Below, piece by piece: positions 168 to 44,947 of a stretch of 45,133 nucleotides of DNA. The stretch covers positions 1 to 45,133 of the IMG/VR virus record IMGVR_UViG_3300048919_000333, one strand, 5' to 3'. The notes beneath the pieces are model-generated. The model did no database searches. It was not told where the DNA came from and saw only the letters and a list, made by a program, of their open reading frames with translations. The DNA is from a virus. The position numbers and the translations under genes are program-made. Position 1 is the stretch's first letter; every line of letters begins with the position of its first letter.

Positions 168-300
168 TCATTTCTGGGCCGCCTCAATATGGGCTCACTC
201 GACCTCAAACCGCGCAGAAACTGCGGTCGAACCACGCCTAATTTGCATAGTTTGTCGATGAGGTGAGTACACTCCGGCCGAACTTCACAGGGAGGTGAGT

Positions 301-1509
301 TTGTCGAGTGTGCGCAAAACGCCCCGAGGGCGATATGAGCTGACGATTCGCAGCAAGCTGCTGCCCAAACCCGTCTACATGACGTTTGACGACCAGGTCG
401 AGGCAGAGCAGTACGGCCAGCAGGTCGACCAGCTGCTCGCTGCCGGCGTGGTCCCTGCAGGCTTGGTGCAGCCGACAGCCTCGCCACCCAAGTCCACAGA
501 GCGCCTGCGCTTCGTTCTGGTTGCCTGGATCAACACCGGCCAGCCTGCTGCCACCGACATTCCGGTCCTCGAGCAACTGGTCGACGAGGTGGGCAAGGTG
601 CTGATCGCCGATCTCACCTACAAGTGGGCCGAGGCCTGGATGCGCAGCCTCAAACTGGAGCGTAATTTTGCACCAGGCACCATCCGCAAGCGTGTGGGCT
701 CGCTGTCCCGTTGCCTGGACTGGTGGCTGCGACAGCATCCCGATGCCATGGTGGGCAACCCGCTGCGGCTGCTGCCTAAGGGTGCTGCCACATACACCCC
801 GAAAGATCGCGCCGACATCGAGGCGCTCAACGCTGTGGCCGGCGACCAGGTCAAGCCCAAGGTTGCGAAGGAAGATGTCCAGCGCGAGCGGCGGCTGCTG
901 CCTGGCGAGCTGGATCGCATCGATCGGGTACTGGCCGGCGAGCGGCGGCCGGACCGCGAGCGCACGATCAAGCTGGACGACGCTCCAGCCTTGCGGGTGT
1001 TATTCCTACTGATCCTGTACACGGGACTGCGGCTGCGCGAGGCCTACACCCTCAGGCGTGGTCAGTTCAGCCTGGCGACGCGGGTGATCCGGGCTAAGGC
1101 CAGCAAGCAGTGGCACGGCAAGGTCAAGTACCGCGAGGTGCCCGTACGTCCGGAGCTGTTCGGGGTTCTGGAAGCCTACCTGCAGGTCCTACCTGATAAG
1201 GGTGAGCAACAGCTGGTCTTCCCTTGGTGGAATGGTGAGGAGAGTGCTCAGGAGCTGGCTAGGGTTTCTTCTCGGTTGTCCAATCGCTTTGCCAGCCTGT
1301 TTGGCTATGCGCAGTGCGAAGGGCTGACCGAGCATGATCTACGGCATGAGGCTACATGCCTCTGGTTCGAAATGCGTAATCAGACGGGCGAATGGATGTT
1401 TCGGGAGGCGGAGATCCATCGCATCATGGGCTGGGCACTTGGCAGTAGGATGAGTCAACGCTATGCTAGCTTCCGTGCAGAGGATTTGGCATTGCGAATG
1501 TACAAATAG
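301..1509 (+). CDS. int: Tyrosine-type site-specific integrase
   Basis: Catalyses integration and excision at the tRNA-Cys site next to which it lies. The C-terminal catalytic domain shows box I TGLRLRE (Arg about residue 244), box II HDLRHE (about 345-350) and a nucleophile Tyr near residue 388 in MSQRYASF; the N-terminal part (about 1-150) would hold the arm- and core-binding domains. The length of about 400 aa is normal for phage integrases. The start is TTG at 301, placed 5 nt after GGAGG (291-295). A GTG at 295 is in frame but overlaps the ribosome binding site, so it is less likely. Reads inward from attL. The excisionase-like gene is not adjacent: an accessory gene separates the two and they are convergent. 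Confidence 0.95.
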   Translation: MSSVRKTPRGRYELTIRSKLLPKPVYMTFDDQVEAEQYGQQVDQLLAAGVVPAGLVQPTASPPKSTERLRFVLVAWINTGQPAATDIPVLEQLVDEVGKVLIADLTYKWAEAWMRSLKLERNFAPGTIRKRVGSLSRCLDWWLRQHPDAMVGNPLRLLPKGAATYTPKDRADIEALNAVAGDQVKPKVAKEDVQRERRLLPGELDRIDRVLAGERRPDRERTIKLDDAPALRVLFLLILYTGLRLREAYTLRRGQFSLATRVIRAKASKQWHGKVKYREVPVRPELFGVLEAYLQVLPDKGEQQLVFPWWNGEESAQELARVSSRLSNRFASLFGYAQCEGLTEHDLRHEATCLWFEMRNQTGEWMFREAEIHRIMGWALGSRMSQRYASFRAEDLALRMYK

Positions 1510-1580: not shown

Positions 1581-4034
1581 TTGATTAAATGTTTCCTTTC
1601 TCATAGTTCAAAAGATAAAGATAGTTATGTACGAGTTGTGTCTAAATTGCTCAGAAAAGAAGTAAGGATTATTGACGAGGAGACTTTTGAAAAAGGGATG
1701 AAAACTGCTGACGAAATTTCCTTGGCCCTTGATGATTCTACTCTCTTTGTTATATTTTTATCTGATTCGGCCCTTCAGTCTAGTTGGGTTCGGGATGAGC
1801 TGCAAGATGCAAAGATCCGTCTTGATCAAAAGAAAATAGAGCGAATTTATCCCATAATAATTGACGAGAATATTAGATTTGACGATTTTAGAATTCCGCT
1901 GTGGATGAGAGAGTCTTTGAATATTCAGCAAATACTTAGGCCTGCTATTGCTGCGAGAAAAATTAATGCTCGACTGCTGGAAATTTCATGGACTAGTCAT
2001 CCAAGGCTAAAGGAAAGAAAGGAGTTGTTCGTTGGAAGAAATCAAGTTATAAGCACAATAGAAGAAAGACTTGATAATTTTGATATTCAATCTCCAGTTG
2101 CTTTAATAGCATCCGGTCTTCAATCCATAGGCAGAAAATCCGTTATATCTCATGCCGTAAAGAAGTCAAATTTGGTTAGAGATTCGTACGAGTTTCCCTT
2201 TATAACGCTCGATTCTTTTGATAGCATTGAGGACTTTATTGTAAAGCTGGATGATTTGGGTTTGGTTGCCGAAAAGATTCCATCTCTTCAAAAAATGTCA
2301 ATTAATGAAAAGGTTGGCATAGCGAAAAAAATTGTAGATAAGATTGTTGAAGATAGAGAAAGAATTTTGATCGAGGATCACGGAGTTCTGGTCCAGCGAA
2401 GCGGCGATATCGTGGACTGGTTCGACGAGCTCCTGGAGCATCTCTCTCCAGCGGGACATTTGACTTTTTGCATTGCCAGTCAGTTCAAGGTGAAGTCAAT
2501 TCTCAATCGAATTTCTCCGAAATTATTTTCTATTCATATCTCTGAGCTTGATATACCTGAGCGCAAAGGGCTTTTGCAAAGATATGCAAGATTTCAAGAT
2601 ATTAATATAGATAGATCAGATCTTGGTTTTTTCTCCGATCTGCTCACAGGGTTTCCGGAGCAAGTTTTATTCACAGTTGACTTCATCAAGGATGAAGGGC
2701 TTCATCAAGCAAGGCGGTTTTCCCATACCATTCAAGAGTATGCGTCTAATAAAGCACAGGTAATTCTTGAAAGGTTTAAGGATCGTCCATTAGATTTAAA
2801 TTTTATCTACTTGCTATGTAGGTTTGAATTTATCAGCTACGAGGTACTGTTTGATATTGTTTCTGAAGAGACTTATTATCCGGTTTTAGAGAATCTGTTA
2901 TCTTTGTCTATTTGTGAGCGGATGGGCTCTACTTCGGATTATATAAGGGTCAATGAGGTCGTTAGAGATTACGTAAGTCGAAGTAGATTTGGTGTTCCTA
3001 CTGAGTTTGAGGCATCGATCGAGTCACATGTAAATAAATTTCTTTCAACCTATGTAGACGAGCATAAAGATATTTCTGATTATTTGTTCTCTGCGCAAGA
3101 GGCACTAAAATCGGGGAGGAATTTGCCGGCGGAAATAATAATACCTTCCGTCCTTGTCAAGACCATTAAACGTTTATATGATGAAGATAGAAATTATAAA
3201 GACGTTATTCTTCTGGCGGAGCGCATTCTCGCTCGTGAGCGATTCATGCATGCAAATACGGTTAGCCATGTCAGGTTTATTTACTGCCAGTCGCTTGCGC
3301 GAGTGAAGTCTGTCAAGTTTTTTGATGAAGTGAGAAAAGTGAGTGAACCTGATCGATCTTTTCTTCAAGGATTTTATTATAGGTTGGCTGGCAAATATCA
3401 ACAGGCTGAAAAACATCTATTGGATGCTAATAGAAAGAAAAGGGATCCTCGAACGATTGGTGAGCTTGTTCTTGTTTATATGCAAAGCGATGAATATGAG
3501 AAAGCATTTGAGTTGGCAAGGGGCAACTACAAAAATCGCTCATCAAATCCTATAAATGCTAATAGCTACTTCTCTTGTTTGATTATTAAGAAGCGAACGG
3601 CCGAAAACAGGATTGAACTGGAGTCGATTCAGAGAAGATTAGCAACAGACCCATCCGATCGTTCGCAAGAGATGGCTGATTCAATGATGGCTAGAATTAT
3701 TGCATATTATGATGAAGATGAAGAAAAGGCAATGGATCTGATAGATTCAGCAATTTTGCGTCATCAAGAGACTGTTTATCCGCTACTGACAAAAGCAGAT
3801 TTGGCGGTGCATTTTCAGAATGGGGATAAACTTAGGGAGGCTGTTTCAAAGCTTGAGATTGCGACGGGTCCAAATGCTCAAAGCTTTCGAACGTTCATTA
3901 AATTTAAAGCTTTTCTTCTTGCTATTGATGGAAAACCCCAGGAAGCTCAGGATTTGATTGATAAGGAGTTATCTGGAATGATTCCAACTGCTTTGCAAAG
4001 ACTCAAGGAAAGAATTCTGATAGCTTCTAGTTAA
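1581..4034 (+). CDS. TIR-domain protein with STAND-like P-loop core and TPR-like C-terminus; putative anti-phage effector
   Basis: An 817-aa cytoplasmic protein. Residues 1-120 look like a TIR domain: FLSHSSKDKD at the start, FLSDSALQSSWVRDEL with a candidate catalytic Glu73 (as in the WVxxE of NADase TIRs), then YPIIID. Residues 145-340 resemble a STAND/AAA NTPase, with VGRNQ, a P-loop-like GLQSIGRKS (about 179-187) and a Walker B-like ILIEDHG. The remainder is helical; about 580-800 looks like TPR repeats suited to sensing. The TTG start follows GGGAG at good spacing. The gene is strongly AT-rich compared with the GC-rich phage core, which marks it as transferred cargo. Known TIR-STAND proteins deplete NAD after detecting phage components; that role here is inference. 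It follows int by 71 bp and has no evident partner gene. Confidence 0.8.
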   Translation: MIKCFLSHSSKDKDSYVRVVSKLLRKEVRIIDEETFEKGMKTADEISLALDDSTLFVIFLSDSALQSSWVRDELQDAKIRLDQKKIERIYPIIIDENIRFDDFRIPLWMRESLNIQQILRPAIAARKINARLLEISWTSHPRLKERKELFVGRNQVISTIEERLDNFDIQSPVALIASGLQSIGRKSVISHAVKKSNLVRDSYEFPFITLDSFDSIEDFIVKLDDLGLVAEKIPSLQKMSINEKVGIAKKIVDKIVEDRERILIEDHGVLVQRSGDIVDWFDELLEHLSPAGHLTFCIASQFKVKSILNRISPKLFSIHISELDIPERKGLLQRYARFQDINIDRSDLGFFSDLLTGFPEQVLFTVDFIKDEGLHQARRFSHTIQEYASNKAQVILERFKDRPLDLNFIYLLCRFEFISYEVLFDIVSEETYYPVLENLLSLSICERMGSTSDYIRVNEVVRDYVSRSRFGVPTEFEASIESHVNKFLSTYVDEHKDISDYLFSAQEALKSGRNLPAEIIIPSVLVKTIKRLYDEDRNYKDVILLAERILARERFMHANTVSHVRFIYCQSLARVKSVKFFDEVRKVSEPDRSFLQGFYYRLAGKYQQAEKHLLDANRKKRDPRTIGELVLVYMQSDEYEKAFELARGNYKNRSSNPINANSYFSCLIIKKRTAENRIELESIQRRLATDPSDRSQEMADSMMARIIAYYDEDEEKAMDLIDSAILRHQETVYPLLTKADLAVHFQNGDKLREAVSKLEIATGPNAQSFRTFIKFKAFLLAIDGKPQEAQDLIDKELSGMIPTALQRLKERILIASS

Positions 4035-4715: not shown

Positions 4716-5113
4716 TGGCGGGGCTCCAATGCATATTCAGGAACGTTGAAGAACTGCAGGCGACCCTTCCAAGGCACGAAGGGCATCAGCCTGCTGTCGC
4801 GCAGCACGAAACCGAAGCTACCCTCCTGCTTCCACCTCGAGGTGCTGTGTTCCACACAGTCCACGATGCGAGTCCAGCCCACCAGGCCGCCGCGCGGCAG
4901 ATCTTCATAGGAGGGCAAACCGCCGGCAGGGAGCATGCTGGCGTTGCCCAGCTCCTCGGTGATCTGGTCGTAGTAGGCGCGGGTCATCGTCAGGCCTGCA
5001 TGCACCAGCACCTGACCGCGAAACGGTGTCGCCCAGTCACGGTTCTCGATGTCCTTGTGACCATGGACAATGAGCCAGGCCCAGGGCTGGCGGATGCTGA
5101 GGGCGGGGATCAT
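4712..5113 (-). CDS. ASCH-domain protein
   Basis: 133 aa with the hallmark start ALSIRQPWAWLIVHG and KDIENRDW of the ASCH fold (PUA-related beta-barrel proposed to bind RNA or modified bases), followed by FRGQVLVHAG and a central GLVGWTRIVDCV strand pair. The whole protein is one domain. ASCH proteins occur often in phages and near RNA-modification or co-activator functions, but the substrate here cannot be deduced. It overlaps both neighbours by 4 nt (ATGA), so it is translated coupled to the ParB gene upstream. Confidence 0.85.
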   Translation of the reverse strand: MIPALSIRQPWAWLIVHGHKDIENRDWATPFRGQVLVHAGLTMTRAYYDQITEELGNASMLPAGGLPSYEDLPRGGLVGWTRIVDCVEHSTSRWKQEGSFGFVLRDSRLMPFVPWKGRLQFFNVPEYALEPRQ

Positions 5114-7272
5114 GGCGTGGCCTCCTGGGCTTCGGTATTGATGATTTCCAGCTCGGTGTAGTCGGCGCTCAGGTTCCAGCGTTCGGCTGCGTCCAGGGCG
5201 TGCTCGTCGAGCAGGTCGACCTCGGGGTCAATCGGCAGCTCGATCAGCCACGCGCGATCGCCGAGGCGCTCGGTGACCATGGCCAGGCGGCCGTTGGTGG
5301 GCAGGAGCTTCTTGCCGGGTCCGCGCAGGTCGACGCGGATGCGGACCTGCTGCAGCGGCTTAATAGAGTTGGGCGTGGTGACCTCGGCGGCGGCCATCGC
5401 GTCGGCGATCGCGCGGCTGGCCTCTGCGGCCGTGGCCTTGCCTTTCTTGAGCTTGGGCGTGGCCTTGTCTGTGGGTGCTGCCTTGCCTGCGCGTGCGGCG
5501 GCCTCGGCTTTCATCTCGTCTTGCACTTGGCTTTGGATCGACTCGAGATCCACGTTGGCCAAGTCCACCAAGTCCTCGAGGAGTGGCTCGCCCTGGTCCA
5601 GGCCGAGGGTGCAGCCCATCATGAGCATGTACTGAATCTGCGCAGGCAGATCCTGCTCGGCTAGATCTTCCAGGGCATTCTCGAGGTCCATTTCTGCCTG
5701 ACCATCCTTGCCGTCCACTTGGAACATGCGGTGCAGGAGGCGAGGGGGGGTCTGGACGGCCAGCAGTTTCAGGATTTGGAGGGCAATGCGGCTGGGAATG
5801 TGGTCCAGCCCTTCGGGTGGGCACTGCATAAGCCCGTCAATCGTTGCCTCGGCAGCGCGCTCGCACCAGCGCATGTCGTACTCGCGCTTCAGCGCTTCCC
5901 GCGTGGGCTCGGCCGGCTTCTCGGCCTGGGCCTTGGCTGCAGCCTGGCGCTCGCCCTTGACCTTCACTGCCGCGCTGGCGGCGTGCGTGGGCACGGCCTC
6001 CACCAGGTTGCCGCTGGGCGCCTCGATCAGCACCACGCTCGTCGCCGACACTTCCTGGCCCAGCACCTGACGCACGGGCGCGCTGCTGCCTTGGCTGGGC
6101 TTGTCCAGCAGCAGGTAGCCACGGGGCGCGCCGTTCTCGCTGGGCATGATGTCGCGCGCCTGGCGGCCGGTGATGATCTGCTGGCCGCGCTGCTGGGCCT
6201 GGGCCTTCAGGCGCTCGAAGTGGGCATCCTTCTTTTCTGCGAAGCAGGCGGTATCGGTACAGACGTCTGCATCGTTTTTGTCCCACAGCTCGGGCGACGC
6301 GCCGGTGTGTTTGGGGCAGATCGAGCAGGCTCCGGCGGCAGGGCACAGCGTGGCATCGTCCAGCGCAAAGGGGGCCTGGTCCAGCTTGAGCATGTAGCTG
6401 CGTCGGGCCAGGTCCAGGGCGCTGCGATAGCTCATGGGGCCGCCGTCAGGGCCGCCTGTGAGCACGCGCTTGGTGTACTCGGTCTGGATGGCCTCAGTAG
6501 GGCGCTGGGCCACCAGCAGGGCCACGCTGCGCGTCAGCGTGCGCGCGGCCAGGGCGGCTGTGGCCTCTGGGCACAGCGTGAGCAGGCGCAGCGATTCAAA
6601 GACGTGAGTGCGGCTCTTGTGCAGGGCTTCGGCGGCGCCGTCGATCGAGAGGCCGTGGTCCAGGGTCAGGCGCTGCACGCCCAGCGCCTCCTGCAGGGGC
6701 GTGAGGTCGCTGCGGTGCAGGTTCTCGATCAGCTGCATCAGCAGCGCGTGCATGTTGTCAGCGTCGCGCTCGATGTAGGGCACGGCGCGCAGGCCCGCGA
6801 TCTGGGCGGCGCGGTACCGGCGCTCGCCCGCAATGATTTCGTGCGTGGCGCGGCGCGTGGCTTCGTCCTCGAAGGTGTCCTGCAGGCGCTCGGCCGGCAG
6901 GCGGCGCAGCAGCAGGGGCTGCAGCACGCCGTACAGCTTCATGGTGGCGGCCATGTCGTGCAGCGCGTCGTCCTCGATCACCCTGCGATTCGTGCGGCTG
7001 GGCGCGATCTGGGCGATGGGCAGCGTGGGGTGCACGATCGCCCCGTTGTCAGGGCTGTCCTCGCTCTCGGCCTGCACGACTTCGAAGGCATCCATGGGCA
7101 GGTTGACCAGGCTGTCGCCCACGGCGATCTGGTACTGGCGCCCGCCGGGCGTCTTGCCGATCACCTTGCCGCGTTGGCCGGCCTGGGGGTGCGGCTTGCC
7201 GCCCCTGCCGGTGGCCTCGAGGCTGATCACCACTTCGCGCTGGATCAGCGGGTCTTTGGTCTTTGGTGCCAT
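5110..7272 (-). CDS. ParB/Spo0J-family DNA-binding protein, without a ParA partner
   Basis: 720 aa. The ATG at 7272 is chosen because AAGGAGGT precedes it by 7-8 nt; the frame stays open further upstream but only as antisense-like sequence. Residues about 84-205 form the ParB N-terminal domain: PSRTNRR, YGVLQPLLLRR, IIAGERRYRAA (about 146-156), LIENLHRSDLTPLQEA. A HTH follows (about 208-231). A cysteine cluster (CPAAGACSICPKH, then DVCTDTACF) suggests a metal site as in some plasmid-type ParBs. The Lys/Ala-rich linker and C-terminal domain are unusual in length. With no ParA gene or obvious centromere nearby, a role as transcription or replication regulator is as likely as partition. The palindrome CAGACGTCTG occurs inside the Cys cluster (6260-6269). 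Confidence 0.88.
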   Translation of the reverse strand: MAPKTKDPLIQREVVISLEATGRGGKPHPQAGQRGKVIGKTPGGRQYQIAVGDSLVNLPMDAFEVVQAESEDSPDNGAIVHPTLPIAQIAPSRTNRRVIEDDALHDMAATMKLYGVLQPLLLRRLPAERLQDTFEDEATRRATHEIIAGERRYRAAQIAGLRAVPYIERDADNMHALLMQLIENLHRSDLTPLQEALGVQRLTLDHGLSIDGAAEALHKSRTHVFESLRLLTLCPEATAALAARTLTRSVALLVAQRPTEAIQTEYTKRVLTGGPDGGPMSYRSALDLARRSYMLKLDQAPFALDDATLCPAAGACSICPKHTGASPELWDKNDADVCTDTACFAEKKDAHFERLKAQAQQRGQQIITGRQARDIMPSENGAPRGYLLLDKPSQGSSAPVRQVLGQEVSATSVVLIEAPSGNLVEAVPTHAASAAVKVKGERQAAAKAQAEKPAEPTREALKREYDMRWCERAAEATIDGLMQCPPEGLDHIPSRIALQILKLLAVQTPPRLLHRMFQVDGKDGQAEMDLENALEDLAEQDLPAQIQYMLMMGCTLGLDQGEPLLEDLVDLANVDLESIQSQVQDEMKAEAAARAGKAAPTDKATPKLKKGKATAAEASRAIADAMAAAEVTTPNSIKPLQQVRIRVDLRGPGKKLLPTNGRLAMVTERLGDRAWLIELPIDPEVDLLDEHALDAAERWNLSADYTELEIINTEAQEATP

Positions 7273-7505
7273 CAACGCACCTCCTTGTGCTTGAGCTGGC
7301 GCACGCGCTGCACGGCGATCTCGCGACGCGCGGCGAGCTGGTCGGCAGGCATGGCGCTGAATTTGTCGCAGCGCGAATCGGCGTTGAAGGTGCGGCCCGG
7401 CATCAGGTGCTTGGCGCATTGGGCAAAGCCCAAGCGCACCATGCGCGGGTCGCTGGTGTCAGGCAGCCAGTGCGTGCAGGCCTTGCATGCGGCGGTGCTG
7501 GTCAT
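7272..7505 (-). CDS. Small Cys-containing hypothetical protein
   Basis: 77 aa, not recognised. A CxxC near the N-terminus (C7, C10) with further Cys at about 30 and 46 could bind a metal ion; the C-terminal third is a basic amphipathic helix. The stop overlaps the start of the ParB gene (TGATG), and the final codons (Lys-Glu-Val-Arg) form the ParB ribosome binding site. Its own ATG overlaps the stop of the gene upstream. Confidence 0.7.
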   Translation of the reverse strand: MTSTAACKACTHWLPDTSDPRMVRLGFAQCAKHLMPGRTFNADSRCDKFSAMPADQLAARREIAVQRVRQLKHKEVR

Positions 7506-8094: not shown

Positions 8095-8252
8095 GGCGCG
8101 CCTCCTGTCAGGCTATGGATCAGCAGGGCGATGCAGGGGCTGCAGATCAGCGCTGCGGCCAGGATGCCCAGGGCCAGCAGTTGCCGGCGCACGCGGCGCT
8201 GGTGCAGGCGGCTGCGGTGCGGGCCGTCCAGTTCAATGCGGCGCGTGTTCAT
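8091..8252 (-). CDS. Small single-pass membrane protein
   Basis: 53 aa: a basic N-terminal half (RRIELDGPHRSRLHQRRVRR) then a hydrophobic helix (about 29-47, LLALGILAAALICSPC) and a short polar tail. The start is the ATG overlapping the stop of the tiny gene before it. Likely an inner-membrane peptide with the N-terminus in the cytoplasm. Function unknown; small membrane proteins in left early operons of other phages include exclusion and host-takeover factors, but nothing here decides this. Confidence 0.62.
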   Translation of the reverse strand: MNTRRIELDGPHRSRLHQRRVRRQLLALGILAAALICSPCIALLIHSLTGGAP

Positions 8253-8386
8253 GGCTGCACCCGGATGGCCGATGCGTTGTGCACGCGGTAGAAGCATTGA
8301 GCCAGGGCCACGGCCAGGGCGCCGCTCAGGTAGGCGCCGGTGAAACTGCGGCCGGCAACGCGCACGCGGAAGGTTTTCAGTTCCAT
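8249..8386 (-). CDS. Very small hypothetical protein (45 aa)
   Basis: The frame reads MELKTFRVRVAGRSFTGAY and onward, ending in VQP. GGAGA lies 6 nt upstream of the ATG. It fills the gap between the helicase-like gene, which it overlaps by 10 nt, and the membrane peptide, which it overlaps by 4 nt. This continuous overlap pattern is the main evidence that it is real. No family recognised. Confidence 0.6.
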   Translation of the reverse strand: MELKTFRVRVAGRSFTGAYLSGALAVALAQCFYRVHNASAIRVQP

Positions 8387-9522
8387 GGCTGGTCTCCATG
8401 GGCTGTGGTTTCGCGCTGCGGTGAACGACCTACACTGGCCGAATGTGGATTGGCCGAATTTTGCAAATCAGCGTCGACGGCGAGCAGTTCGTGGTGCGCG
8501 CCACCAGTGGCGGTTTCTGCAACGTCTTTCTGCTTGATCAGCCCTGCGACCAAGTGGCGCTGCAAGTGGGGGACCTCATCAGCGGACGCCTGGATTCCAT
8601 GCTCCATGAGCCACTGGTGCGCCTCAACGACCGAGTAGCTTTCAAAGCCACGGGGAAGCTGGGGGCGGGCAGCCTTGAGCAGGCCCTGCAGCTCATGGGC
8701 TGACCGGCCGAACGGCCCGACAGGCAGGGCGCCACAGCACTGCAGCAGCGTGTACAGGCCGCACATGCGGCCATACCAGTGGTTCCACAGTGGAGAGCCT
8801 TCGGGCAGCCTGTCCAGAGTGCGCTCGGCGCTCCAGATCGTGGCGCTGGCGCGGTTCAGTACTTCGGCCAGCGTGGCTGTGCGAATGGGTGCGGCCTCGG
8901 TCATCGCTGCGGCGGCCCCTTCTGCCAGCGTGCAGCTGGTCAGGAAGGCTGCACTGATGGGGTACTCGCGTAGGTATTGAGCGAACTCCAAATGGCCGTC
9001 GGTCGCCCGCCAGTTGATCAGGGCGCGGTAGAACTCAGGCTCGCGCGGCGGCGCGGTTTCTATGGTGAGAAACTGCGCCGGCGACCAGCCCTGAGTGGAC
9101 TTGTCGCGGCACGCGAACAGCAGGTTCAGGCGATTGGGCTCGGTGCGAGGGGCATGGCCCTTGCGTGTGATGTGCAGGGTGAGTGAATCAAGCAGCAGCG
9201 CCAGGGCCTCATGGGTGGCCTCACCCTGCGGAGCCTTGTCGAACACCACCAGGCGCTTGCCGGCCAGCACTGCGTTGCCGCTGTCCAGCAGCCTTTGCGC
9301 ACTGCCCAGCGAGAGGTAGGCGCTGCCATGGATGCGCGCCATGGTTTCCAGCAGGGTGCCTTGGCCGTTGCCTTGCGGGCCGTGCAGCACCAGGGCCTTG
9401 GTCAATCTGCCAGTGGAATGCTGCAGCGGGTAGGCCAGCCATGACAGCAGCAGGTCGTGGTCGGGGCTGCGGGCGCCGCCCGTGAGGTGGGCCACCAGAT
9501 CGAGGATGGGCTGCACGTTCAT
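8377..9522 (-). CDS. Degenerate SF3/DUF5906-like primase-helicase paralogue (Walker A Lys replaced by Gln)
   Basis: 381 aa. Residues 7-200 parallel the replicative primase-helicase encoded at 13422-15080 in the same phage: LLSWLAYPLQH matches LLRWLAYPLQH, and the order of P-loop, KRLVVFD/KLFVV strand and NLLFACRD/NIAFLSNE strand is kept. The P-loop reads GPQGNGQGT (48-56) where the active protein has GDEGAGKN, so the catalytic Lys is Gln54, and the sensor and arginine-finger region is eroded. It is therefore probably unable to hydrolyse ATP. The frame is intact over its full length and embedded in an overlapping operon, so it is a kept gene, not a pseudogene. A role as regulator or inhibitor of the helicase is inference. 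Confidence 0.8.
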   Translation of the reverse strand: MNVQPILDLVAHLTGGARSPDHDLLLSWLAYPLQHSTGRLTKALVLHGPQGNGQGTLLETMARIHGSAYLSLGSAQRLLDSGNAVLAGKRLVVFDKAPQGEATHEALALLLDSLTLHITRKGHAPRTEPNRLNLLFACRDKSTQGWSPAQFLTIETAPPREPEFYRALINWRATDGHLEFAQYLREYPISAAFLTSCTLAEGAAAAMTEAAPIRTATLAEVLNRASATIWSAERTLDRLPEGSPLWNHWYGRMCGLYTLLQCCGALPVGPFGRSAHELQGLLKAARPQLPRGFESYSVVEAHQWLMEHGIQASADEVPHLQRHLVAGLIKQKDVAETATGGAHHELLAVDADLQNSANPHSASVGRSPQRETTAHGDQPWN

Positions 9523-9749
9523 GCCGCACCCCGCATTTCAGCGCCCGTCAGCACGGCACCGGCAGCATCGGCCGCAGCCTGGGCGCGCGTGACATCTACG
9601 ACCAGGCGGGTGACGTCCAGCTGGCCACGCAGCTTCTTCAGCAGGCGGCCGACGTCAGTTTCTTGATGGGGATCGTTCTCGAAGCCGGCGATGAACTGCT
9701 CGGCTTCCTGCAGCGCTTCATGGAGCGCCAGAAGAGGGGCAAGGGACAT
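9519..9749 (-). CDS. Small helical hypothetical protein, first gene of the leftward operon
   Basis: 76 aa, almost entirely helix-forming (LLALHEALQEAEQFIAGFE, then a basic helix, then an Ala-rich C-terminus). GGAGG stands 4-5 nt before the ATG. It is the promoter-proximal gene: the leader from the predicted start near 9777 is about 28 nt. First products of such operons are often antiterminators or takeover proteins, but no N-like arginine-rich motif is evident and the family is not recognised. Confidence 0.7.
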   Translation of the reverse strand: MSLAPLLALHEALQEAEQFIAGFENDPHQETDVGRLLKKLRGQLDVTRLVVDVTRAQAAADAAGAVLTGAEMRGAA

Positions 9750-9783
9750 GGAACCTCCAGCACCCGGGATGGGTGTGGAGGCG

Positions 9784-9812
9784 ATTATTTCCCCTGTGGG
9801 TAAACTTGTCTA
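9784..9812 (-). promoter_or_regulatory. Leftward early promoter (PL-like)
   Basis: On the minus strand TAGACA (9812-9807), a 17-bp spacer and AATAAT (9789-9784): five of six matches to consensus in each element with ideal spacing. One operator fills the spacer (9789-9803) and another overlaps the -35 (9812-9826), so repressor binding would block RNA polymerase directly. Confidence 0.85.
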
Positions 9813-9858
9813 TACCCTTTGGGGAATGTTTTGGCCTTCTTTTCAGCCCTGTGGGGAA
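9789..9858. promoter_or_regulatory. OL-like operator cluster (three sites)
   Basis: Three copies of a 15-bp dyad, ideal form TTCCCC-n3-GGGGAA: 9789-9803 (TTCCCC TGT GGGTAA), 9812-9826 (ATACCC TTT GGGGAA) and 9844-9858 (CAGCCC TGT GGGGAA). Centres are 23 and 32 bp apart. The third lies within the last codons of the rex-position gene. The same dyad forms a second cluster of three at 10822-10883. Confidence 0.82.
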
Positions 9859-10382: not shown

Positions 10383-10808
10383 TTAGGCAGCGCTTCTATC
10401 GCTTTTCTTGAGGGCATCTGCCTCTCGCGTCTCCACTACAGCTTGCACGGTTGCGTTCAGGCGTATCCAGTCCTCCCGTGTTAGAGCGTCCAACCTCGCG
10501 CGGGAAATGGAAAAGGGCCAATCAGCCGGCGCTGGGGGGGCTGAGCCCTGGGCCTGTGTGTGGGAGTGGGCGTTGTCCATCCAGCCGACTTCGAGCAGGA
10601 GTTTCTCCTCCATCTCGCGCGCCATAGGGCTGCCCATGTTGTATGGCTTGCCCCCTCGATCGTGCCTGACATTCGCATTGAGGATGCGGGTCAGGGTTGC
10701 CGTCTCGTTTCGGGCGTAGCCCAGCTTCTCACAAAGGTTTGCCATCCCGCTGTGCTGGTCGACCAGAGCCTGTAGGTTCGCTCGCCTAATTTCTTCAACT
10801 GTTCGCAT
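10383..10808 (-). CDS. Phage repressor (CI position), short form without peptidase domain
   Basis: 141 aa. The first 85 residues are a HTH DNA-binding domain: RRANLQALVDQHSG, NLCEKLGYA, ATLTRILN, AREMEEKLLL, and the closing GWMD that is common in this class of phage repressor. The C-terminal part after an Ala/Pro linker is a short helical segment (WPFSISRARLDAL); there is no S24 Ser-Lys peptidase fold, so RecA-stimulated self-cleavage is not expected. The ATG at 10808 is chosen because the operators begin 14 bp upstream; the frame remains open through the operators but that cannot be coding. It faces the Cro-like gene across the operators. Confidence 0.8.
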   Translation of the reverse strand: MRTVEEIRRANLQALVDQHSGMANLCEKLGYARNETATLTRILNANVRHDRGGKPYNMGSPMAREMEEKLLLEVGWMDNAHSHTQAQGSAPPAPADWPFSISRARLDALTREDWIRLNATVQAVVETREADALKKSDRSAA

Positions 10809-10821
10809 CCGGGCGATTGCA

Positions 10822-10883
10822 CTGTCCAAAGGGGAAAAAGAAAATTCCCCGTTGGGTCTTGCGTAACTTTCCCCATTGGGGAA
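10822..10883. promoter_or_regulatory. OR-like operator cluster (three sites)
   Basis: Dyads at 10822-10836 (CTGTCC AAA GGGGAA), 10845-10859 (TTCCCC GTT GGGTCT) and 10869-10883 (TTCCCC ATT GGGGAA, a perfect palindrome around 3 bp). Centres are spaced 23 and 24 bp, just over two helical turns. They lie between divergent repressor and Cro-like genes. The perfect site sits on the rightward promoter; the weakest lies nearest the repressor gene, as OR3 does in lambda. Confidence 0.88.
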
Positions 10884-10887
10884 TAAA
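10859..10887 (+). promoter_or_regulatory. Rightward early promoter (PR-like)
   Basis: TTGCGT (10859-10864), a 17-bp spacer and AATAAA (10882-10887). The match to consensus is only moderate, but the geometry copies the leftward promoter: an operator within the spacer reaching the -10 and a second reaching the -35. The expected start lies at about 10894-10896, immediately before the ATG at 10897. Confidence 0.6.
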
Positions 10888-10896
10888 ATGCGCCTC

Positions 10897-11169
10897 ATGG
10901 AGCTACTCAAAACTTGGTTGACCGGCGGGAGAGGCCGATGCGCAGGGCTTGCGCGTCACCTCAACGTCTCGCCCTCGTTCGTGAACAAGATGGCGAATGG
11001 CGAGCGGCCGATCCCCGCCGAACATGGCGCTGACATTGAGAAGTTCACTCAGGGCGCTGTTACGCGCTCCGCGATGTTTCCCCAGGGTTGGCAGCGCATA
11101 TGGCCAGAGATGGTGCATGACCATGAGGGCACGCTGCATTCCTGCCATCAAGGAGGAGGCCATGCATAG
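10897..11169 (+). CDS. Cro/YdaS-type transcriptional regulator
   Basis: 90 aa. MELLKTWLTGGRGRCAGLA then HLNVSPSFVNKMANGERPIP is a compact HTH (recognition helix about 25-36); the C-terminal AVTRSAMFPQGWQRIWPE matches the tail common in YdaS/Cro-like regulators of Burkholderiales phages. The ATG at 10897 gives the usual N-terminus for the family. An in-frame ATG at 10888 exists but would lie upstream of the predicted transcription start. The chosen start has no Shine-Dalgarno sequence and may be leaderless. Expected to act at the same operators as the repressor to favour lytic growth. Confidence 0.82.
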   Translation: MELLKTWLTGGRGRCAGLARHLNVSPSFVNKMANGERPIPAEHGADIEKFTQGAVTRSAMFPQGWQRIWPEMVHDHEGTLHSCHQGGGHA

Positions 11170-11975: not shown

Positions 11976-12359
11976 ATGGACCCAGCACTCAATTACGACG
12001 ATGAGCTGGAGGCTGCCAAGGATGCTGTGAAGTACCTGGGTGGCCCGAAGAAGGTGGGCGAACTGCTGTTCCCCGAGAAGCAGCCTGACGCGGCGGCGCG
12101 CTATCTGCTGGATGCGCTGAACCCGGCCCGGGCCGAGCGGCTGAGCCCGGGCCAGTTGCTGCTGCTGATGCGCAAGTGCTGCGAGATCGGCTTTCACGGC
12201 CTGACCGCCTATCTGCTGCATGAGGCAGGCTACGCGCCGCCCATGCCGCTGGACCCTGTGACCGAGGCCACGAAGCTGACGCGCGAGCTGGAGCGCACGG
12301 TGGGCCATGCGTCGCTGCTGGTGGCACGCCTGGAGCGGCTGAAAGAGGGCAGGGCGTGA
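11976..12359 (+). CDS. CII-position phage regulatory-like protein
   Basis: 127 aa. The central region AKDAVKYLGGPKKVGELLF, then ARYLLDALNPARAERLSPGQLLLLMRKC, resembles the HTH of phage regulatory CII/CP76-type proteins of Proteobacteria, which monitor or set early transcription; the similarity is from memory of the family pattern and moderate. The C-terminus is a helical tail. GGAGGT is 8 nt before the ATG. It follows the double palindrome and precedes the primase gene, whose ATG overlaps its stop (TGATG). Confidence 0.6.
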   Translation: MDPALNYDDELEAAKDAVKYLGGPKKVGELLFPEKQPDAAARYLLDALNPARAERLSPGQLLLLMRKCCEIGFHGLTAYLLHEAGYAPPMPLDPVTEATKLTRELERTVGHASLLVARLERLKEGRA

Positions 12360-13429
12360 TGGACAACTACCAGAGCGTGCTGCACCAGATGGAGCATTTC
12401 GGCATCGCGCTGCGCGACCGGGATCGGCGTGATCTGCCCGAGAGGATCAGGGCAGGGCGCAAGACGACCTGTGGTGCCGGCGGCAAGGATTGGTACAAGC
12501 TGCACCTGTGGCAGCCGGACGCCGGCGGCACGTATGTGGTCGGCTCGTTCGGCACCTATCGGCACGGCGGCGATTGGCAGAAGGTGGAGATTGACCTGGC
12601 GCCGCTGTCCGAGGCCGAGCGCGCCCGCCAGGCGGCGCACCGCAAGGCGCTGGCCGAGGCTGCGGCGATCGAGCGTGCTGCCGAGATCGCCAATGCAATG
12701 GCCGAGGCCATCGATATCTGGCGCAAGGGCGTGCGCGCTGCCACCACGCCGTACCTGGGCCGCAAGCAGGTGCAGGGCGAGGCCTTCCGCGCGCTGGACC
12801 GCCAGCTGTCGCTGCGCTGGCCTGCCCGTAAGCGTGGTGATGAAGATGTGGTGGTGCGCCTGCCAGCCGGCACCACGCTGCTGCCCCTGGTGCGGCCGGA
12901 TCTGCCGCGTGACCAGGCGCTGCGCGGCCTGCAGTTCATCAAGCCGGACGGGATGAAGATCTACCTGCGGGCCTTCGACAAGCCGGGCTGCTGCATCCGC
13001 CTCGGCGAGATCGACGCCGGCAGCACCGCGCTGCTGATGGTGGTGGAGGGCTACGCCACGGGCCTGACTGCCCGCATGGCGGTCGATCACCAGCATCCCG
13101 TGTTTGTGGCCCTGGACGCCGGCAACCTGGCCGAGGTGGTACGCGTGCTGCGCGGCCTGTACCCGGCCACGCGCATCCTGATCCTGGCCGATGACGACTA
13201 CATGACCCGGGACAAGCGCACTGGCGCGCTGATCAACCCGGGCCGCACGGCCGCTGCCCGCGCCGCCAAGGCCACGGACGGCTGCGATCTGGTCTGGCCC
13301 ATCTTCAAGGCCTCGACACGGGGGCCGAAGGATACCGACTTCAATGATCTGCACGTCCTCGAGGGCCTGGACGTGGTGCGCCGGCAGCTGGTGGGCGTGG
13401 TCGAGGCGATGGCGAGGCGCTATGGCTGA
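12359..13429 (+). CDS. Toprim-domain DNA primase-like protein
   Basis: 356 aa. The C-terminal half is a Toprim fold: LLMVVEGYATGL with metal-binding Glu230, ILILADDD (Asp278-280), then NPGRTAAARAA and KDTDFNDLH. The N-terminal part, with GGKDWYKLHLW and a helical Ala/Glu-rich linker, fits an RNA-primer synthesis partner but lacks an obvious zinc ribbon. It would make primers for phage replication together with the helicase gene that follows; the two genes overlap by 8 nt. A GTG at 12356 is also in frame. Confidence 0.85.
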   Translation: MDNYQSVLHQMEHFGIALRDRDRRDLPERIRAGRKTTCGAGGKDWYKLHLWQPDAGGTYVVGSFGTYRHGGDWQKVEIDLAPLSEAERARQAAHRKALAEAAAIERAAEIANAMAEAIDIWRKGVRAATTPYLGRKQVQGEAFRALDRQLSLRWPARKRGDEDVVVRLPAGTTLLPLVRPDLPRDQALRGLQFIKPDGMKIYLRAFDKPGCCIRLGEIDAGSTALLMVVEGYATGLTARMAVDHQHPVFVALDAGNLAEVVRVLRGLYPATRILILADDDYMTRDKRTGALINPGRTAAARAAKATDGCDLVWPIFKASTRGPKDTDFNDLHVLEGLDVVRRQLVGVVEAMARRYG

Positions 13430-43328: not shown

Positions 43329-43506
43329 AAACTGCTTGTTAGGGTGATTATTCAACTAAACCACAGAAAAGAGCGTGGAATTTTGTGATTATTCTAGGGT
43401 TCTTCTATCTGTATAAAAGATGTGCTTTAAAAATCCCGGATTTAATTTGATAGATGGTCCGATGTGAATTAATTTGAATAAATATCTAAAAGGAGTAGCA
43501 GTCGAT

Positions 43507-44502
43507 ATGAATGATAACAATAAATTTTCAGAAGAATATCAAAAGAATTTTGAGGGTTTAAATAGATTGCGTTTGGCAATCGTTGAGCAGTTGTCAAGCA
43601 TTCTTCAGCGCCATCATATATCTTTGGCTATCCCGGTTGAAAGTCGTGTTAAGTCACTGGTTTCAATTTCGGAAAAAGTTGATAGGAAAAGAAAGGCGTT
43701 TGTCAGTATATTTGAATTTGATGATGTGGTGGGGGTTCGTGTAATTTTATTATTCAATAGGGATGTTAAAAAAGCAAAATCGTTAATTGAAAAAACTTTT
43801 GACGTTTGTAGTAGTGAAGATACGTCTGATAGATTGGGAGAGGTTCAATTCGGATATCAATCGCAACACTACGTTGTAAAGCTACCTAAAGTCTGGTTGG
43901 ATGTTCCAACATTTGTTGGGTTGGGTGACATGAAAGTGGAATTGCAGGTGCGTACTCTAGCACAGCATATTTGGGCAACTGCGTCTCATAAGCTTCAGTA
44001 TAAGCAAGAAGCAAGTGTTCCCCCACCTTTGAGACGTGCGATTCATCGTGTGTCAGCTTTACTGGAGACTGTAGATCTTGAGTTTGAGCGGGTTCTGAGT
44101 TCTCGTGATGAATACATAGACCTTAATTCTCAATTAAGTAACTTTGATAAGCCTATAAATGTGGAGTCTTTGAAGACGTTGATGGATGATATTTTGCCGG
44201 CAGAAAATTTCCGTGAGCCAGAGGAGTATTCTGATCTTGTGCAGCAATTATTATCGCTTGGAATCGATTCAGTGGATAGGCTTAAGGATATATTGACTTC
44301 TCACTATGATTGGGTAGAGAAATTTGATAGTGAAAAAGTTGAAGAAAAATCTCTTTCAGGGCATTTTTTCGGTACATCTGAAGAAAGAATCAAAAAGGGC
44401 GTGTTTCTAACGCACGTTGGATGGGTTAGAAAAGCATTGGCCCGTGAATTGGGGCAAGATGTATTGTTGAATTCAACATCAAAACTTAATAAAAATAAAT
44501 AG
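43507..44502 (+). CDS. RelA/SpoT-domain nucleotide synthetase (toxSAS/CapRel-like candidate)
   Basis: 331 aa. The synthetase fold is complete: ESRVKSLVSISEKVDRK, FDDVVGVRVI with metal-binding Asp73, GYQSQHY (116-122) and ELQVRTLAQHIWATASHKLQYK-type G-loop and Glu145. The last 130 residues are an extra helical domain without zinc ligands. No hydrolase domain. The enzyme would pyrophosphorylate a nucleotide or, as in toxSAS, tRNA. The ATG at 43507 has AAGGAG about 12 nt upstream; an in-frame TTG at 43474 is the alternative. AT-rich, and solitary with no antitoxin gene beside it, which recalls CapRel-type single-protein systems where the C-terminus controls the toxin and senses phage; this is inference. 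Confidence 0.82.
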   Translation: MNDNNKFSEEYQKNFEGLNRLRLAIVEQLSSILQRHHISLAIPVESRVKSLVSISEKVDRKRKAFVSIFEFDDVVGVRVILLFNRDVKKAKSLIEKTFDVCSSEDTSDRLGEVQFGYQSQHYVVKLPKVWLDVPTFVGLGDMKVELQVRTLAQHIWATASHKLQYKQEASVPPPLRRAIHRVSALLETVDLEFERVLSSRDEYIDLNSQLSNFDKPINVESLKTLMDDILPAENFREPEEYSDLVQQLLSLGIDSVDRLKDILTSHYDWVEKFDSEKVEEKSLSGHFFGTSEERIKKGVFLTHVGWVRKALARELGQDVLLNSTSKLNKNK

Positions 44503-44510
44503 TTTGACCT

Positions 44511-44598
44511 GCCCCTTGCCCCTTGCCCCTTGCCGCTTGCCCCTTGCCCCTTGTCCCTTGTCCCTTGTCCCTTGTCCCTTGTCCCTTGCCGCCTTGCC
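44511..44598. repeat. Tandem 7-bp repeat (CCCTTGC/CCCTTGT)
   Basis: About twelve units of CCCTTGY, first mainly the C form, then about five T forms, then C again. Starts 9 bp after the stop of the synthetase gene. The array length could vary by slippage. Confidence 0.92.
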
Positions 44599-44671
44599 AA
44601 TTTATTCGTGGAGAGACCTAAGGGGTGGCAGGCTAGCTGATCTGACCTGCCCCCTCATAGCCGTACCAGAT

Positions 44672-44947
44672 GTGCTTGGCCGCGCAGGCGTACCAAGCCT
44701 ATGCCCACCGGTGCAGCCTGTGCCGGGAGCCGAAACGGCCCGGCGCGAAGTCTTCACCGCCAGCGCGATCGCCGCAGCCACCCAGGCCGGCCAGCGCCTG
44801 CGCGTTAAAGTGATACGCATCGATGAAGGCTCCCTGGCCCGCGTCGACAGGGTGCTGCTGGTGTCCGAGCCGCTGTACAAAGGGCAGGGTGCCTGGGTGA
44901 CTGCCTTGGTTCAGTCATTCGATGACCGCCTACCTCGCCCAGCGTAG
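44672..44947 (+). pseudogene. Gene fragment near attR
   Basis: A GC-rich frame with protein-like composition (TASAIAAATQAGQRLRVKVI, RVDRVLLVSEPLYKGQGAWV) and a proper stop, but no credible start: upstream it runs into the 7-bp repeat. Probably the end of a former phage or host gene cut off by the AT-rich insertion. Family not recognised. Confidence 0.4.

Follow-up and report, generated by a model that had tools for sequence, protein, structure and literature searches.

A selected family of SF3 helicase-like proteins lacking catalytic residues in the leftward operon of temperate phages, and its possible action on the replicative helicase ring

The leftward operon of a temperate phage (IMG/VR record IMGVR_UViG_3300048919_000333, positions 1 to 45,133; this entire 45,133-nucleotide stretch is referred to below as the window) carries as its second gene a real and complete open reading frame, at 8377–9522 on the minus strand, which encodes a 381-aa Walker-dead SF3/DUF5906 helicase-like protein. 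The gene belongs to a diverged family in which the catalytic lysine of the Walker A motif has been lost throughout while the reading frame has been retained under selection. A selected protein with an ATP-dead core suggests that the family acts by touching or regulating a helicase ring and not by DNA unwinding of its own.

The leftward (PL) operon extends on the minus strand from about 9812 down to 4347. Its first gene encodes a 76-aa protein (9519–9749, minus strand) and is coupled to the dead gene by an ATGA overlap (9519–9522), and the dead gene in turn overlaps by 10 nt the 45-aa gene directly downstream of it (8249–8386, minus strand), whose place is conserved among relatives. Further downstream lies a gene for a ParB-like protein with ParB_N and HTH_ParB domains (5110–7290, minus strand); no ParA was recognised among the window ORFs searched. 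The integrase gene is at 295–1509 (plus strand), and a repressor-like regulator, matching a PHROG transcriptional repressor at 1.3e-14, is encoded at 10383–10910 (minus strand). The rightward operon contains a Toprim primase (12356–13429, plus strand) and an intact SF3/DUF5906 replicative helicase, P0003 (13422–15080, plus strand; motifs GDEGAGKN, GDE, SNE and DRR), with the terminase genes standing after both.

The first-pass annotation had proposed that the leftward protein resembles the helicase of the rightward operon, and pairwise comparison bears this out, with 32% identity over 241 aa (E = 2e-26, or 4e-24 when the whole record is searched) and Pfam DUF5906 scores above the cut-off of 27.6 bits for both proteins (35.6 for the dead protein, 70.8 for P0003). 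On these grounds we regard the dead protein as a true SF3/DUF5906 homologue of P0003. The helicase body comprises residues 1–205; the remaining extension of about 175 aa (residues 206–381) is common only to the window and its closest relative, L003, no other relative having been found in searches with it, and it has no match to the C-terminus of the intact helicase. An AlphaFold2 model built from 45 homologues has a pLDDT near or above 90 across most of residues 1–200, compared with a pLDDT of 45 in an earlier model from 8 sequences. The best PDB fold match of the model is the NrS-1 SF3 helicase ring (E = 4e-11), followed by poxvirus D5 and then the SaPI5 primase-helicase (7ola). The predicted structural similarity is thus present, although the intact helicases were among the 45 homologues and the model depends on sequence homology, so the fold match agrees with the homology and is not a separate proof of it.

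The motifs quoted in the annotation are also as described: both proteins share WLAYPLQH, and the former Walker A motif (9355–9381, minus strand) reads GPQGNGQGT in the dead protein and GDEGAGKN in P0003, with Gln54 (CAA, 9361–9363) in place of the catalytic lysine. The loss goes well beyond this residue. FDK replaces the GDE of Walker B (9235–9243, minus strand), with loss of the glutamate; sensor-1 (motif C) reads FACRD instead of FLSNE, without the asparagine; and the DRR arginine-finger motif has become PAQ. The former finger pair, Ala149-Gln150 (9073–9078, minus strand), is Arg-Arg in six relatives and Ala-Arg in L003, where the finger codon is CGA (Arg) as against CAG (Gln) in the window. 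As judged from the alignment, the window protein lacks the Walker A lysine, the Walker B pair, the sensor-1 asparagine and the arginine finger, all of them residues of active SF3 enzymes.

Pattern scans with the window protein, or with its two-sequence alignment, recovered L003 alone, whose dead protein is 93% identical to that of the window. The remaining relatives were obtained by fetching loci via the neighbouring ParB-like and intact helicase genes, followed by tblastn. The family then comprises 8 different sequences, drawn from 12 records of phages or prophages, with the copies of L046, L050 and L044 at 45–50% identity to the window protein and those of L034, L032 and L056 (a Comamonas suwonensis prophage) at 20–24%. 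Searches of 563 genomes yielded no further member beyond Comamonas suwonensis, which indicates that the family is rare or narrow, and a plasmid collection searched with the dead proteins gave no match. Several hundred matches were obtained among GenBank phages, and the three inspected were all long intact primase-helicases. The position of the dead gene within the leftward operon is constant in all 8 phages: it stands between the 76-aa and 45-aa genes, with a 240-aa gene preceding or following it in some. Three phages (L031, L039 and L054) have a near-identical operon and helicase without the dead gene, which is consequently not essential.

The annotation had anticipated that the substitution of lysine by glutamine would be conserved in other phages, and that homologues retaining the lysine would point to a strain-specific mutation. 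We looked for such homologues and found that none of the 8 members keeps the lysine, so a strain-specific mutation can be rejected; L084, a remote chromosomal homologue with Arg at this position, was left aside from the family. The lysine is present in 47 of 47 intact reference homologues and, without exception, in the intact homologues from loci collected later. It is the loss that is conserved and not the glutamine, as the position is occupied by Gln in 2 members, Thr in 3, Asn in 2 and Ser in 1, and in the far members the P-loop is wholly erased (LLLNGYVQSGSHLL).

The residues that survive are as informative as those that are lost. In P0003 numbering, W253, A255, P257, Q259, G278, N360 and F363 are kept in all 8 members, the Walker B Glu320 is retained in 3, and the arginine finger R379 in 7, the window protein being the sole exception. 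Lys279 of Walker A and Asn366 of sensor-1 are found in none, with the sensor-1 loss less certain in L044, where an Asn stands one residue later. The alignment therefore gives the family pattern as a lost ATP site in cis and a kept arginine finger in trans, with the window one step further. By counting along the alignment, Lys279 corresponds to Lys453 of NrS-1 and R379 to Arg556. In NrS-1, NTPase activity is abolished by K453A and reduced 7- and 15-fold by R555A and R556A, respectively, and none of the three mutants unwinds DNA (PMC7102993). The stepwise decay over eight relatives shows which residues a non-catalytic subunit must keep.

The idea that the gene is a paralogue of the phage's own helicase needs to be qualified. 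Homology and the loss of catalytic residues stand, but a recent duplication of the neighbouring helicase is contradicted both by the tree and by the identities. When 47 helicase bodies are placed in a tree, a branch supported at 100/96.8 separates the 8 dead ones from the remainder, so that the dead genes make up one old, separate clade; the tree contains long branches, and its exact root is unsure. The intact helicases of L046, L050 and L044 are 88–99% identical to that of the window, compared with 45–50% for their dead proteins, and across all phages with the dead gene the intact helicases are 66–99% identical as against about 22–95% for the dead genes. In most pairs no other gene compared has diverged as far as the dead gene.

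Despite this divergence, the frame is intact in all 8 dead genes and is kept by purifying selection. The dN/dS ratio is 0.28 between the window and L003 (0.20 in the body and 0.36 in the extension), 0.18 between L034 and L032, and 0.29–0.44 in the other pairs. Neutral simulations were as conservative as the observed change in 0 of 2000 runs for the window and L003 and in 2 of 2000 for L034 and L032, and for a third pair 0 of 2000 neutral runs had as few amino-acid changes. Stop codons arose in 50–82% of the simulated neutral genes. The description of the gene as intact is upheld.

Expression from PL, as the annotation had assumed, is in line with a promoter candidate TAGACA-17-AATAAT upstream of the operon (9784–9812, minus strand), and 7 relatives have promoter-like sites at the same place. 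Two operator-like palindromes overlap PL (9788–9827, minus strand), TTTACCCACAGGGGAAA at 9788–9804 and ATTCCCCAAAGGGTATA at 9811–9827, and palindromes of this kind recur at the repressor start, where a third, ATTCCCCAATGGGGAAA, lies at 10868–10884. At the PL sites of the relatives the operator-like palindromes are either of this type or of two others. The arrangement of these palindromes suggests that the repressor binds at PL. Co-expression of the dead gene with the repressor in the lysogen is not supported, as PL with its operator-like sites lies between them. The layout at PL in the window, L003, L044 and L056 comprises three operator-like specificities (TTCCCC.., ATCCAAAATGGAT and TTACCATTTGGTA), as would be expected in close relatives with swapped immunity regions.

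An inverted repeat of the form CCTCC...GGAGG covers the Shine-Dalgarno sequence of the first PL gene (9753–9782, minus strand). It spans 11 bp, is conserved in relatives with 3 compensated pairs, and has no Rfam match. The expected PL start falls within its 5′ arm, so that RNA started at PL would leave the Shine-Dalgarno sequence open and read-through RNA would hide it. The repeat may act as a gate that restricts translation of the operon to transcripts started at PL.

These results lead us to propose, as a plausible but tentative mechanism, that a pseudo-subunit of the early lytic phase binds to the subunits of an SF3 helicase and tunes or poisons their ring, much as the annotation had imagined for helicase hexamers. 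The family, old and under selection, consists of SF3 helicase bodies that lack the residues for ATP binding and hydrolysis in cis; its members would be made early in the lytic cycle from PL, under presumed repressor control. The protein would dock through the conserved helicase-body interface on an SF3 replicative helicase, that of its own phage being the nearest candidate, and the resulting mixed or capped rings would have their unwinding lowered or tuned in a dose-dependent manner, the target and direction of the effect being conjectural. In most relatives the surviving arginine finger would still face the ATP site of the neighbouring subunit; in the window, where the finger is lost as well, a mixed ring would be inactive on both sides of the dead subunit. 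Docking is favoured by the contrast between the body residues kept in 8 of 8 members and the finger in 7 of 8 on the one hand and the lysine and asparagine kept in none on the other, by purifying selection on the dead gene, by the same operon place in 8 phages, by the NrS-1 ring fold, by the need for the matching residues in NrS-1, and by the AAV Rep mutant K340H, an SF3 Walker-lysine mutant that still oligomerises and is dominant negative (PMC4944284). Against it count the absence of a head domain from the dead bodies and of a tail from the short forms, the missing finger of the window member, the patchy presence (L031, L039 and L054), and the much faster divergence of the dead gene than of the helicase that it must fit. 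Tail-less NrS-1 is a monomer (PMC7102993), and the dead bodies, instead of assembling a ring themselves, may attach to one that already exists.

Among the alternatives we give most weight to re-use of the body for an unrelated job, such as DNA binding or a scaffold or adaptor role in the PL operon, without contact with a helicase ring. The complete erasure of the P-loop in far members would fit such a change, as would the loss of the finger in the window and an extension peculiar to the window and L003, but the arginine finger, which is known to work across a subunit interface, is kept in 7 of 8 very diverged members, and we consider this reading unlikely. Nearly as much can be said for a foreign target, in which the dead subunit would poison SF3 helicases belonging to competitors that share the cell, whether phages or phage satellites. 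The SaPI5 match illustrates that satellites employ this class of helicase too, and fast divergence with patchy presence would suit an arms race; on the other side, selection on the dead gene is purifying overall, no competitor helicase was matched to the dead protein, and the operator-like sites over PL indicate a lytic rather than a lysogen product, which makes the interference with related phages that had been suggested for the gene less likely from the lysogenic state. On balance a foreign target, too, seems rather unlikely.

The dead body could instead be a positive factor, a loader or ring-breaker that enables loading of the intact helicase by opening or capping the ring. DnaC, an AAA+ protein, is the established model of a helicase loader, and early expression, a conserved helicase body and an asymmetric loss of interface residues would agree with such a role. 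SF3 helicases usually load themselves, however, and the phages L031, L039 and L054 live with the same helicase and no dead gene, which leaves a loader improbable. We think it very improbable that the protein serves as a decoy, drawing off a host defence able to sense the replication helicases of phages: its early PL position, its accessory nature and its being the fastest-diverging operon gene in most comparisons would be in keeping with that, but loss of catalytic residues does not by itself require a decoy role, no such sensor was identified and there was no PADLOC match. The hardest alternative to credit is a decaying relic without function that is kept by chance. The motif loss is indeed stepwise and has gone furthest around the arginine finger in the window lineage, yet all 8 frames are open, and few or none of the neutral simulations were as conservative as the observed changes; together with the frequency of simulated stops, this largely refutes the idea.

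Returning to docking on the helicase ring, several known systems offer comparisons. The helicase domain of NrS-1 polymerase (SF3; PDB 6K9C, 6K9E and 6LRB) shares the helicase body, is the best fold match, and is also a sequence homologue of P0003, but it forms an active hexamer with a head, a tail and all catalytic residues, whereas the dead protein consists of the body and an unrelated extension. DUF5906/VapE/D5-like phage primase-helicases (PHROG 1156, 2249 and 4762) are of the same sequence family as the dead body, but their P-loop is intact and a primase accompanies them, either fused or as a separate partner. AAV Rep K340H has lost the corresponding lysine and demonstrates that an SF3 subunit without activity remains able to oligomerise and to act as a dominant negative; that mutant is laboratory-made and full length, whereas the loss in the dead family is natural, old and inherited, and its dominance would hold only by analogy. 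Clamp loaders offer well-known cases of AAA+ subunits that are ATP-dead and regulate active partners, for example bacterial delta-prime. As is generally known of these subunits, their own ATP site is lost and the arginine finger acting in trans is kept (PMC3331839), likewise in 7 of the 8 members here; clamp loaders nevertheless belong to a different AAA+ clade and complex, the window member has no finger, and any such assembly of the dead family is hypothetical.

Within a limited literature search we met no account of a naturally occurring dead family of SF3 replicative helicases in phages. To our knowledge, a wedge or cap role in SF3 helicases is known only from laboratory mutants. Somewhat less probable than docking in general is the proposition that phages of Comamonadaceae and relatives possess a natural pseudo-helicase family that has lost ATP binding, has as a family kept the arginine finger in trans, and regulates an SF3 replicative ring in the manner of a wedge or cap. 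If docking on the ring is true, the dead gene would be an evolved single-gene handle on the level of phage replication.

Some further observations concern neighbouring genes and a related prophage. L093 is a prophage with a related intact helicase; about 9 kb away, at 1377–1856 on the minus strand, it encodes in the leftward direction a protein of 160 aa that stands alone and has both an intact P-loop (GPQGCGKT) and a DRR motif. This protein is perhaps a living cousin of the dead family. In the window, an 817-aa TIR-domain protein encoded between the integrase and the leftward operon (1581–4034, plus strand) matches the PADLOC TIR-NLR defence model over its full length (E = 3e-171). At the right end, a gene for a RelA/SpoT-domain protein (43474–44502, plus strand; Pfam 2e-20, PADLOC PDC-S33) is followed by a 147-aa gene (44504–44947, plus strand), and the two are a possible defence pair of the toxin-antitoxin type.
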